A stretch of 64,000 nucleotides of DNA. It comes from [Mycobacterium] nativiensis (lineage in GTDB: Bacteria; Actinomycetota; Actinomycetes; Mycobacteriales; Mycobacteriaceae). The first letter of the stretch is position 1. Each line of letters begins with the position of its first letter. This document shows, piece after piece, positions 11,458 through 64,000 of this stretch. The position numbers and the translations under genes were made by a program. The stretch spans positions 4,894,951 to 4,958,950 of the forward strand of contig NZ_CP083986.1 of assembly GCF_020172685.1 (NCBI RefSeq). Reading direction: 5' to 3'. A model generated the notes under the pieces. That model was not told where the DNA came from and did not search any database. It was given only the letters and a program-made list of their open reading frames with translations.

Positions 11458-13962
11458 TCAGCCGGGCTGGCCGCTGGCGCCGTCGGTGCCGGGCTGACCG
11501 GGCGGGGTGCCGGTGCCGGCCGCACCGCCGGCCCCACCTGCGCCAGCCGCCCCGGCCGCGCCGTGGGTTCCGGTGGTGCCACCGGTGCTGGCGCCGCCTG
11601 CCCCGCCGGCCGCGCCGTTGCCGCCGGTTCCACCGTCACCGCCGCTGCCACCGGGCAGGGTATTACCGGCTGAGTCGGTACCGCCGTTGCCGCCCTTGCT
11701 GCCCGCGCCGCCGGTCCCGCCTGAGCCACCAGTACCGCCGGTGCCGCCGTTGCCGGAGACAGCGGTCCCTCCGGCACCACCAACGCCGCCGTTGCCGGCA
11801 GTGCCTCCGTCGTGGCCGTCACCGCCGGGTTCGTGCGCGGGGTTGGTTGCCGGCGCGCCGGTGGAACCGGTTCCGCCGACGCCGCCGTTACCGCCATTGC
11901 CGGCGTCGACGCTGCCTTGCGCATTCCCACCGGTCCCGCCGGCTCCACCGTCACCGCCAACGCCAACGGTGCCGGTGCCACCCATGCCGCCGGCGCCGCC
12001 ATTGCCGGCGTGGCTGGAGCCAAGCCCGTAGGGGTTGTTCGTTGGCATGGCGACTCCGCCGCTGTTGCCGCCGGCGCCGCCGGCACCGCCGTCGCCCGCG
12101 GTGCCACCAATACCACTTCCACCGAGAATGACTGCGCCCGCGCCTCCGGTTCCTCCGGTACCGCCGTTGCCGCCTGATGCTGTGCCGTTGCCGCCGTTGC
12201 CACCGCCGCCACCCGAGCCGGCATTGCCGCCGCCGTACGCGGTCCCGCCGGTGCCGCCGCTGCCGCCATTGCCACCAACGCTGACGACACCCGGCCCGGT
12301 CGCACCGGCACCGCCGTTTCCTCCGTTGCCGCCGGACGCACCATCGCCGGTGTAGGCGCCGCCGCCCTGCGTGCCGCTGCCACCGTTGCCGCCGTGGCTC
12401 CAGATGGTGCCGGTTCCGTCGTCCCACCCGGTGCTGTTGCCACCGTTGCCACCGTTGCCGCCGGCACCGCCGGTGGCACCGGATCCCCCGCCTCCGAAGA
12501 AGCCGTCACCACCGTTGCCGCCGGCATAGGTGCCGGTGCCACCGTCCCCGCCGCTTCCGCTGGCCCCACCGACCCCGGTTTGGGTGCTTCCGCCCGAGCC
12601 GCCCCCGCCACCGTCACCACCGATGGTCTTGACGGTGTTGTCACCGGTGGCGCCATTGCCACCTGCACCACCGTTACCGCCCGCACCACCGACTCCACTA
12701 AGGGACGGAGCGCCCGAGCCCCCCCACCCGCCGCTGCCGCCAGTACCCGCGGTGGCATCCCCGCCGGCTCCGGCATTTCCACCAGCGCCACCGGTGTTGC
12801 TGTCAGCGGACTGGCCGCCGTTGCCGCCCCAACCGCCGCCGCCACCGTTGAGTCCGGTACCGCCGTGACCACCGTTGCCGCCGTTACCACCGACGTTGCC
12901 ATTACCGGCGTACCCGCCGTCACTGCCGGAGCCACCGTTGCCCAGGTAGTGGCCGTTGACGTCTTGGTAGGCGTCGCCGCCGTTACCGGCGTCGCCGCCG
13001 TCGCCGCCGTTGCCGAGCTGGCCGACGTGTCCGTACATGGGGCTGGTGTAGATGGAGGATCCACGCGCACCGGCCGCACCGCCAGCACCGCCACCCCAGG
13101 ACCAGGCCCCGTTGCCGCCATCGACGTGATCGGCGGTACCGGTGGCGCCGTCGCCACCTTTACCGCCGGCGCCGGCATTGCCGCCATTGCCGCCGTTGCC
13201 GAACATGAAGCTGCTACGCCCGCCGGCCCCACCGTTGCCGCCGTAGCCGCCGGCTATGCCGTTGCCGTCGCCGCCATTGGCGAATGTACCTGCGGCGCCG
13301 GCCAGCCCATCCGCACCGTTGCCGCCGATTCCGCCGTTGCCAAAGAACCAGCCCGATGCGTTGCCGCCGGCCCCGCCGTTGCCACCAGCGACAGCGGCAT
13401 CCAGGGCCACCCCGCCGTTGCCGCCATTTCCACCATTGCCCATCCAGATGCCGCCGGCCCCACCGTCACCACCGTTGGCTCCCGCGCCACCGTCACCGCC
13501 GGTACCGCCATCGCCGAGCCAACCGGGCGCATTGCCGCCGTCACCACCGGCAACCCCTGCTTCGGTACTGTCCCAGCCGTTTCCGCCGTCGCCGAACCAC
13601 AAGCCGCCGTTGCCGCCGTCGGGATTGGCCTCGGTGCCATCGGCCCCGTCACCGATCAGGAACTGCCCGGCCGAGGTGTTGATCCAGCCATTGACCATCG
13701 ACCCGAAGTCACTGTTGATCCAGCTCTCCATCGAGGTGTGGATCGGGTCGTAGAACCACTGGTCGATCATGGAGGTCCAGTCGAACGTTGCCGCGTCAGC
13801 GGGTTCGGCAGCCAGCCACGCTGAGGAATCGAAAAGATCGGCGATCCAATCGAATTCATCGGCCTGAGCCGGCGGTGCCACGCTCAGCGGCGCCATTCCG
13901 AACGCCAGAAACGCACCGACAGTGCTTGCGGTGCCAATCGCACGCTGGTGACGACGAGCCAT
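11458..13962 (-). CDS. Secreted PGRS-repeat protein lacking a PE domain (PGRS-B, 834 aa)
   Basis: The protein has three parts. First is a signal peptide with a basic start (MARRHQRAIG), the hydrophobic core TVGAFLAFGMAPLSV and cleavage at AQA/DEFDW. Next is a short head (about 35-105) with DQWFYDPIH and WINSDFGSMVNGWIN. Last is a linker FLIGDGADG...GGLWFGDGGNG leading into about 700 residues of GGX-type repeats, ending in a Pro-containing tail (GASGQPG). The linker resembles the GRPLI linker of PE_PGRS proteins, but the PE domain is absent, so export should be by Sec or Tat rather than ESX-5. The ATG at 13962 has AGAGG about 10 bases upstream. It is a tandem paralogue of the upstream gene (74-base gap), sharing block YTSPMYG...YQD..GHYLGNGG. 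Role unknown; surface or cell-wall location inferred. Confidence 0.85.
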   Translation of the reverse strand: MARRHQRAIGTASTVGAFLAFGMAPLSVAPPAQADEFDWIADLFDSSAWLAAEPADAATFDWTSMIDQWFYDPIHTSMESWINSDFGSMVNGWINTSAGQFLIGDGADGTEANPDGGNGGLWFGDGGNGWDSTEAGVAGGDGGNAPGWLGDGGTGGDGGAGANGGDGGAGGIWMGNGGNGGNGGVALDAAVAGGNGGAGGNASGWFFGNGGIGGNGADGLAGAAGTFANGGDGNGIAGGYGGNGGAGGRSSFMFGNGGNGGNAGAGGKGGDGATGTADHVDGGNGAWSWGGGAGGAAGARGSSIYTSPMYGHVGQLGNGGDGGDAGNGGDAYQDVNGHYLGNGGSGSDGGYAGNGNVGGNGGNGGHGGTGLNGGGGGWGGNGGQSADSNTGGAGGNAGAGGDATAGTGGSGGWGGSGAPSLSGVGGAGGNGGAGGNGATGDNTVKTIGGDGGGGGSGGSTQTGVGGASGSGGDGGTGTYAGGNGGDGFFGGGGSGATGGAGGNGGNGGNSTGWDDGTGTIWSHGGNGGSGTQGGGAYTGDGASGGNGGNGGAGATGPGVVSVGGNGGSGGTGGTAYGGGNAGSGGGGGNGGNGTASGGNGGTGGTGGAGAVILGGSGIGGTAGDGGAGGAGGNSGGVAMPTNNPYGLGSSHAGNGGAGGMGGTGTVGVGGDGGAGGTGGNAQGSVDAGNGGNGGVGGTGSTGAPATNPAHEPGGDGHDGGTAGNGGVGGAGGTAVSGNGGTGGTGGSGGTGGAGSKGGNGGTDSAGNTLPGGSGGDGGTGGNGAAGGAGGASTGGTTGTHGAAGAAGAGGAGGAAGTGTPPGQPGTDGASGQPG

Positions 13963-14036
13963 CTTGGATGTACCTCTTTCATGGGAAACATGTTGTTGAA
14001 TAAGTGTTTTAGGGGACTTGAGGCGTCGCCGGCCTG

Positions 14037-63408: not shown

Positions 63409-63423
63409 CGCGGGTAGCCGCGA

Positions 63424-64000
63424 TCAGGGGTTGCTGGTGCCGGTGGTGCCGGGAGCTCCCGGCGCACCGGTGGCGCCGCCGTTGTGGCCGTTGCCACCGT
63501 TGGTGCCGTGGCCGGTACCGCCCGAACCGTTGCCGCCGACGCCGCCGTCGCCGCCCCTGCCGCCGTCGCCGTTGCCGTCGTCTCCGGGGGCGCTGCCGTT
63601 GCCGCCGTTGCCGCCGTTGCCGCCGGAACTATCGGCGTCGGTGGAACTCTGGCCGCCGGACTGCCAGACGGTGCCGTGCCCACCGTTGCCGCCGACACCG
63701 CCGGTGGCGCCGTCGGTGCCGTTGAGGCCGCCGTCACCGCCATTGCCGGCGACCGAGGTGCCGTCCGCTATCTGGGTGCCTGCGGCAATCGGGTCGTAGG
63801 CCTGGATAAAGCCGTTGCCGCCGGCACCGCCGTCGCCGCCGTTGCCGTCACCGCCGTTGCCTCCGGTTGCGTGGCTTCCAGTGACGCTCCCGTTCAGCCC
63901 GGCGGCGCTGGCGCCGCCGCCGGCACCACCAGTGGCATGGGCTGCGGTGGCCGCGCCGCCGTTGCCGCCGATGACCGTGGCGTCAGCGATGCCGGTGGAC
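63424..64000 (-). CDS. Sixth PGRS-repeat protein, C-terminal 192 codons (5' end outside window)
   Basis: The minus frame is open from the window edge to TGA at 63424-63426. It has GGX repeats (GGNGGDGNGGDGGAGGNG) mixed with ATVIGGNGG and SVTGSHATGGNGG units, so it belongs with the Thr/Val-rich subtype seen at 56709-61394. A short non-Gly island (FIQAYDPIAAGTQIADG) interrupts the repeats, and the tail is GAPGAPGTTGTSNP. No N-terminus is visible, so a signal peptide cannot be confirmed. Convergent with gtrA. Confidence 0.78.
   Translation of the reverse strand, partial: STGIADATVIGGNGGAATAAHATGGAGGGASAAGLNGSVTGSHATGGNGGDGNGGDGGAGGNGFIQAYDPIAAGTQIADGTSVAGNGGDGGLNGTDGATGGVGGNGGHGTVWQSGGQSSTDADSSGGNGGNGGNGSAPGDDGNGDGGRGGDGGVGGNGSGGTGHGTNGGNGHNGGATGAPGAPGTTGTSNP

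Follow-up and report, generated by a model that had tools for sequence, protein, structure and literature searches.

Glycine-rich PGRS modules behind predicted Sec-type signal peptides in Mycolicibacter, and a possible change of leader at the origin of the PE_PGRS proteins

A 64,000-nucleotide stretch of the [Mycobacterium] nativiensis genome (contig NZ_CP083986.1, positions 4,894,951 to 4,958,950; hereafter the window), which belongs to a 5.28-Mb single-contig Mycolicibacter genome, encodes five proteins whose glycine-rich PGRS repeats are preceded by a signal peptide and a short head domain instead of the PE domain of the PE_PGRS proteins. Computational analysis established this architecture, the homology of its linker and first glycine-rich module with those of PE_PGRS proteins, its distribution in sampled genomes and the existence of chimeras in which the end of the head lies behind a PE domain. 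We consider it likely that these proteins are exported by Sec and cleaved by signal peptidase I, that their PGRS part resides in the cell envelope, and that the Sec-type leader is probably the older one, the PE_PGRS proteins having arisen by a later swap.

An earlier note on this DNA, made from the letters alone, had described five complete genes with a common pattern. All five are indeed present and complete in the window, as judged from the open reading frame (ORF) list and motif reading, and they lie on the minus strand, so that the coordinates 11458, 14037, 20192, 30090 and 56709 by which the note named them are 3' ends. Two starts were moved inward relative to the ORF list on the basis of conservation and Shine-Dalgarno-like sequences (16481 instead of 16613, and 29170 instead of 29224), and the refined products are 834, 814, 2992, 3137 and 1561 amino acids long. 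Each of the named motifs, i.e., a basic start, a GAFLAFG core, A-x-A followed by D, D[EG][FL]D and YxPxH, is found in the five proteins, always in the order signal peptide, variable acidic stretch, YxPxH and GGX repeats. An artefact, such as random long ORFs in GC-rich DNA, was ruled out by the conservation of the heads in 80 kept loci and by the Shine-Dalgarno-like sites.

Gene 1 (11458-13962) has a Shine-Dalgarno-like AGAGG upstream and comprises a signal peptide ending in AQA before D (13861-13962, assigned by motif and conservation), a mature head with YDPIH at 13738-13752 and a predicted helix hairpin (13660-13860), and a GRPLI-like linker continuing into the PGRS (11461-13659), where the Pfam PGRS family PF21526 matches residues 103-172 with 49 bits and the polyproline-II bundle structure 7jjv is also matched. 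Gene 2 (14037-16481), its tandem paralogue (73% at the amino acid level), has its signal peptide at 16365-16481, its head at 16164-16364 (YDPIH, 16242-16256) and its linker and PGRS at 14040-16163, with PF21526 above cut-off at 47 bits. Genes 3 and 4 are paralogues of each other (65%): in gene 3 (20192-29170) signal peptide, head and linker with PGRS span 29021-29170, 28721-29020 (YTPLH, 28802-28816) and 20195-28720, and in gene 4 (30090-39503) 39354-39503, 39054-39353 (YTPLH, 39135-39149) and 30093-39053. In the genome search both scored above the PF21526 cut-off at the linker (35.0 and 35.6 bits, respectively); 200-residue pieces of the two proteins, in which the domain is cut, gave 18.1 and 18.9 bits, below the cut-off of 27. 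Gene 5 (56709-61394) has a signal peptide at 61269-61394, a head at 61014-61268 (YQPLH, 61059-61073) and a glycine-rich domain at 56712-61013 with 39% glycine and 229 GGX triplets; its head scores 98.4 bits with the head profile, and PF21526 does not reach the cut-off (7.8 bits, E value 6). The linker LIG[ND]G...GGLWFGDGG is present in four of the five proteins, as had been reported; that of gene 5 is a diverged version, VFANGANAY...GGFLFGDGG.

The export signal was analysed in 43 proteins, consisting of the 42 proteins with PF21526 found genome-wide and the product of gene 5. A-x-A followed by Asp or Glu occurs in all 43, whereas 500 shuffles gave it in 8.8 on average and in 17 at most; the residue predicted to start the mature protein is Asp in 39 proteins and Glu in the other four. 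In an alignment of 34 heads, conservation is highest in the signal core and the c-region (mean majority fractions of 0.68 and 0.69), the head tail, the variable head and the n-region having lower values (0.52, 0.46 and 0.39). Recent copying was rejected as the cause of the conserved core: where the core aligns without gaps (36 of the 43 genes), sites sharing a residue differ in their synonymous codon in 51% of comparisons, and saturation would give 54%. A strict signal-peptide rule was passed by 37 of the 42 own N-termini and by 69 of 83 non-PE rows from other genomes (five further non-PE rows, L310, L323, L381, L382 and L388, were left out before the count), compared to 3 of 24 PE_PGRS and 59 of 840 shuffled controls. 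The type VII secretion motif YxxxD/E is found in a single head of the 43, where shuffling predicts 8.3, and in 8/8 PE control domains. The earlier note had proposed a Sec or Tat (twin-arginine translocation) route in place of ESX-5. The Sec part of this proposal agrees with the predicted signals, and the Tat part does not hold, as the twin-arginine motif (S/T-R-R-x-F-L-K) was found in none of the 43 in its strict form and in one in a loose form. A lipoprotein was likewise rejected, since position +1 holds Asp or Glu and never Cys. From its motifs, therefore, the export route looks like Sec, not Tat.

None of the five window genes has a PE domain. Pfam listed neither a PE nor a PPE domain in any of the five N-termini, and returned both PE and PGRS for two PE-head-tail chimeras used as positive controls. 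Profile comparison of the heads with eight PE domains of the same genome by hhalign gave probabilities of 0.3% and 0.1%, and none of the 42 own N-termini scored above the inclusion line of a local PE profile, in agreement with the lack of a PE helix pair noted before. The head is predicted to fold as a short helix hairpin with the signature Y-x-P-x-H ... W-I ... I-N. As for the structural comparison with PE that had been suggested, the head model had no Foldseek match to the Protein Data Bank at E<=10, the model itself being weak (predicted template modelling score, pTM, 0.43).

The resemblance of the linker to the GRPLI linker of PE_PGRS proteins, first noted by eye, reflects homology as far as profile scores can tell. 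A profile built from the own linkers matched all of the PE_PGRS linkers tested (24 of 24), in each case at the GRPLI site and with scores of 27-65 bits, whereas 960 shuffles scored at most 3.6 bits and internal PGRS windows at most 16.4 bits; as both sets of linkers were collected with one Pfam model, this result tests position and strength and is not an independent discovery. A second profile, A2, made of the head tail and the linker, was compared with the profile of the PE_PGRS linkers and gave a probability of 95.8% (E value 7e-9), the aligned region being I-N ... G-[R]-x-L-I-G-[ND]-G. Three own paralogues read INQPFLALTGRALIGDG. In a subgroup of own paralogues (e.g., L024, L113 and L116), CG[LMV]IC[ND]G replaces LIG[ND]G, and the conserved Cys pair could form a disulfide.

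The architecture extends far beyond the five window genes. PF21526 has 42 matches in the genome, 39 of them above cut-off, and a signal-peptide-type head lies upstream of all 42 linkers; the head profile itself gives 55 matches at about 53 places, two of them weak. The same genome holds 16 PE and 49 PPE matches, and its EccB matches the solved EccB5 with 793 bits, versus 280 for EccB3. This EccB5-type gene lies outside the window at roughly 2.38 Mb, and PE and PPE genes are found as far as about 2.40 Mb. ESX-5 genes are thus present, yet all PGRS modules stand behind signal-peptide-type heads, which argues that PGRS is of the Sec type in this genome. Relatives of the own PGRS heads belong to Mycolicibacter in 73 of the 80 kept loci, which came from 116 confirmed stretches. 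A Mycolicibacter-type gene with signal peptide, head and PGRS was also seen on a short contig of a Melainabacteria metagenome-assembled genome (L089), probably a misplaced contig. Carriage on a plasmid was rejected, the first 150 residues of gene 1 having no match in the plasmid collection.

Among 396 sampled Mycobacterium (GTDB) genomes, 263 had PF21526 matches; in this and the other multi-genome searches, only the best 14 to 27 first-look candidates were scored per genome, so that per-genome counts are lower bounds. A2 matched in 147 of the 396, with a best E value <=1e-10 in 129, a number that includes PE chimeras, and weaker A2 matches can consist of the linker only; in 30 genomes whose best A2 locus was examined, PE preceded it in no case. 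When 30 genomes were instead represented by their best linker, 26 of these linkers were of the PE type, three had signal peptide and head, and one had an N-terminus of another kind that appeared signal-like by eye; ranking by score biases this set towards PE types. From the same survey, 48 low-copy genomes were picked by hand. Their 121 linker matches include 90 that were classified, as 2 PE, 83 signal-peptide-like by a lenient rule and 5 unassigned (L310 among them); the other 31 were left unclassified, 30 having E values above 1.1e-6 and one lying at a contig edge. The head tail is present in 34 of the 90, and several types of leader seem to be represented. In a family-wide draw, PGRS matches were found in 22 of 201 genomes, of which 10 are among the 186 genomes from other genera. 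One locus was read from each of eight of these ten: no PE was present in any, and all eight start with a stretch that appears signal-like by eye. Four of the ten have no PE match at all, including G008, where the head tail occurs in two loci, and the other six have 1-3. The PE family search also gave a match in the Escherichia coli control genome, an oddity of the control. The occurrence of PGRS behind an export signal of seemingly ordinary, removable type suggests a glycine-rich module that predates the PE tag and is more widely distributed than it.

Eight PE_PGRS-type genomes were likewise chosen by hand from the 396-genome survey, and 17 A2 matches reaching the head tail were found in six of them. 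All 14 classified matches lie behind a PE domain and 13 lead into glycine-rich sequence; the other three of the 17 were left unclassified. Three of the 14 classified tails (L288, L295 and L299) were reached by the A2 search only, below the local threshold. In L274, for example, Pfam confirmed the PE domain and the PGRS on either side of VVYGPVHTAGQAWISSPLGAALDPIINAPTNALFGRDLIGNGAAG. In one chimera (L278, genome G285), PE and head tail are followed by histidine-phosphatase-like sequence (VRHGES) and not by PGRS. A head tail behind PE would be expected had PE been substituted for the signal peptide while the tail itself was kept. In a tree of the linker module, from which L310, L388 and L395 were left out, and PEt_L288 was left out of the clade test, nine of ten chimera rows cluster together with good support, separately from the remaining PE rows.

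Several observations weigh against the reading as Sec-exported proteins with an older, later exchanged Sec-type leader. The linker tree has 73 columns and needs seven changes of the PE label; a single PE origin is not rejected (approximately unbiased test, p-AU 0.192), and the direction of change is not readable from it. The PE type provides the best-scoring linker in 26 of 30 genomes, and six of the ten PGRS-bearing genomes of other genera do hold PE matches. The full head profile also detects unrelated signal peptides: it matches 13 of the 201 family genomes, and in four of these the matches are weak, lack a linker and look like such peptides. The strict rule fails to detect a signal in 5 of the 42 own N-termini and in 14 of the 83 others, a lenient signal finder can be fooled, and the signal-peptide calls come from motifs, conservation and rule-based finders, export being a prediction from them. 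The head model taken alone is weak.

A Sec-exported PGRS protein may also stay periplasmic. It is conceivable, though we think it unlikely, that the proteins are exported by Sec and then retained, coating the inner side of the envelope as uncleaved or periplasmic proteins without reaching the surface. The last 25 residues of the five window proteins look plain, and we know of no device for exporting such a protein across the outer membrane, although none was searched for. On the other side, the invariant A-x-A speaks for cleavage, and the PGRS itself has been proposed, in a part of PMC9436101, to bind the mycomembrane.

A more doubtful alternative is that PE_PGRS came first, and that Sec-type forms arose by loss of PE and gain of a signal peptide in Mycolicibacter, fast growers and other genera. 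It would account for PE and signal-peptide rows being partly interleaved in the linker tree, whose root is not fixed, and for some PE in six of ten PGRS genomes of other genera. It needs many losses, however, since 88 of the 90 classified linkers in the 48 low-copy genomes have no PE, nor do the eight loci read from other genera, where four of ten genomes have no PE match of any kind; the head tail kept behind PE in the chimeras is moreover expected if PE was added in front. That type VII secretion exports these proteins by way of a cryptic signal, their resemblance to signal-peptide proteins being incidental, is very unlikely: ESX-5 and many PPE proteins exist in the genome, and PE_PGRS depend on ESX-5 in other species according to a portion of PMC7028111, but YxxxD/E is depleted in the heads, A-x-A[DE] is invariant and no similarity to PE was found. 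Convergence of the linker in glycine-rich sequence, with no common origin with PE_PGRS, is hardly credible despite the extreme composition of PGRS and the single Pfam model that found both linker sets, given the position-specific match in 24 of 24 cases, far above shuffles and internal repeat windows, the profile comparison and the head tails behind PE in the chimeras.

Returning to Sec export with a later exchange of leader, we propose that the conserved signal peptide would take the protein through SecYEG and that signal peptidase I would cut behind A-x-A, so that the product begins with Asp or Glu. This mature protein would consist of a variable acidic stretch, the short helix hairpin and the GRPLI-like linker, the hairpin capping a polyglycine/polyproline-II sandwich formed by the PGRS. 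This sandwich would most likely be located at or within the mycomembrane, a position also suggested for PE_PGRS; the PGRS bundle would bring about the placement in the envelope, a location beyond the inner membrane being an inference. According to part of PMC6819658, PE proteins carry YxxxD/E without a classical signal peptide, and in Mycobacterium marinum the surface protease PecA removes PE from PE_PGRS. Both routes would thus end in similar mature products, and signal peptide and PE may be regarded as two removable leaders of one module. The Sec-type leader would probably be the older, the PE_PGRS of slow growers representing a later leader replacement and the Sec type having expanded independently in Mycolicibacter. 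We lean, with some reserve, towards a fuller scenario in which the original PGRS was an envelope module exported by Sec in Mycobacteriaceae, and PE_PGRS arose when a PE domain displaced the signal peptide while the head tail was retained. The GRPLI linker would then be a remnant of the head and the PE-head-tail-PGRS chimeras surviving intermediates, Mycolicibacter with its Sec-type genes (some 50 in this genome) and slow growers with their PE_PGRS would represent parallel expansions of one passenger on two export routes, and the conserved signal core may be a sorting signal.

Elsewhere in the window, a tRNA-Ser gene (11350-11439) lies directly downstream of gene 1. Two tandem genes on the minus strand, 39592-42063 and 42023-44347, encode large proteins with an RPYVT-type signal peptide, the motif LTAG.DFF.PY.DLF..T..NL and long GLG/LL repeats; they have no Pfam match above cut-off. 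A leader of the RPYVT type also fronts the PGRS module in L338, from one of the low-copy genomes.

The proteins share with PE_PGRS (PF00934 with PF21526) a homologous GRPLI-type linker and first glycine-rich module, a predicted polyproline/polyglycine-II fold and organisation as a multigene family with tandem copies. They differ in their own leader, a Sec-type signal peptide and head in place of PE, in the absence of YxxxD/E from 42 of 43, and in their occurrence in genomes without any PE match. The polyproline-II helical bundle is also that of springtail and snow-flea antifreeze proteins (7jjv, 2pne and 3bog), with which the glycine-rich fold alone is common and no relation is implied. One passenger behind different leaders is known already: LipY reportedly occurs with PE or PPE, to go by a 2011 title of Daleke. 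The PE-PPE-domain hydrolases (PF08237) present the same situation, the PE-PPE domain being described in a part of PMC3037379 not only from PE and PPE proteins but also from one protein that has a predicted signal peptide, and from actinobacteria lacking PE/PPE. The passenger studied here is in contrast a structural module, present in dozens of copies, and its chimeras keep the head tail.

A signal-peptide leader on PGRS appears little described, as the earlier note had supposed: no description of such proteins was recognised in the open-licence PubMed Central literature, among the matches listed and by titles and the beginnings of abstracts. PE_PGRS are tied to ESX-5 and often described as peculiar to pathogenic mycobacteria (the latter in parts of PMC10216338 and PMC4229189), and as totally absent from fast growers by Gey van Pittius in 2006 (a passage of PMC1660551). 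The latter absence may stay true for PE_PGRS as such; PGRS modules are present in putative fast-grower genomes, fast-grower-like by size. PGRS proteins in non-pathogens such as M. smegmatis and other Mycolicibacterium are treated in a 2025 review, which comes nearest to such a description among the papers found; it calls their N-termini questionable and, in its section 7, names no leader (PMC11939664, as far as the parts cited here go), whereas a leader is described here. The finding bears on the question about these N-termini that the review left open. If true, it gives the GRPLI linker an origin, and if PGRS is widespread, older and mostly Sec-exported, its function could be investigated in non-pathogens, independently of PE and ESX-5.

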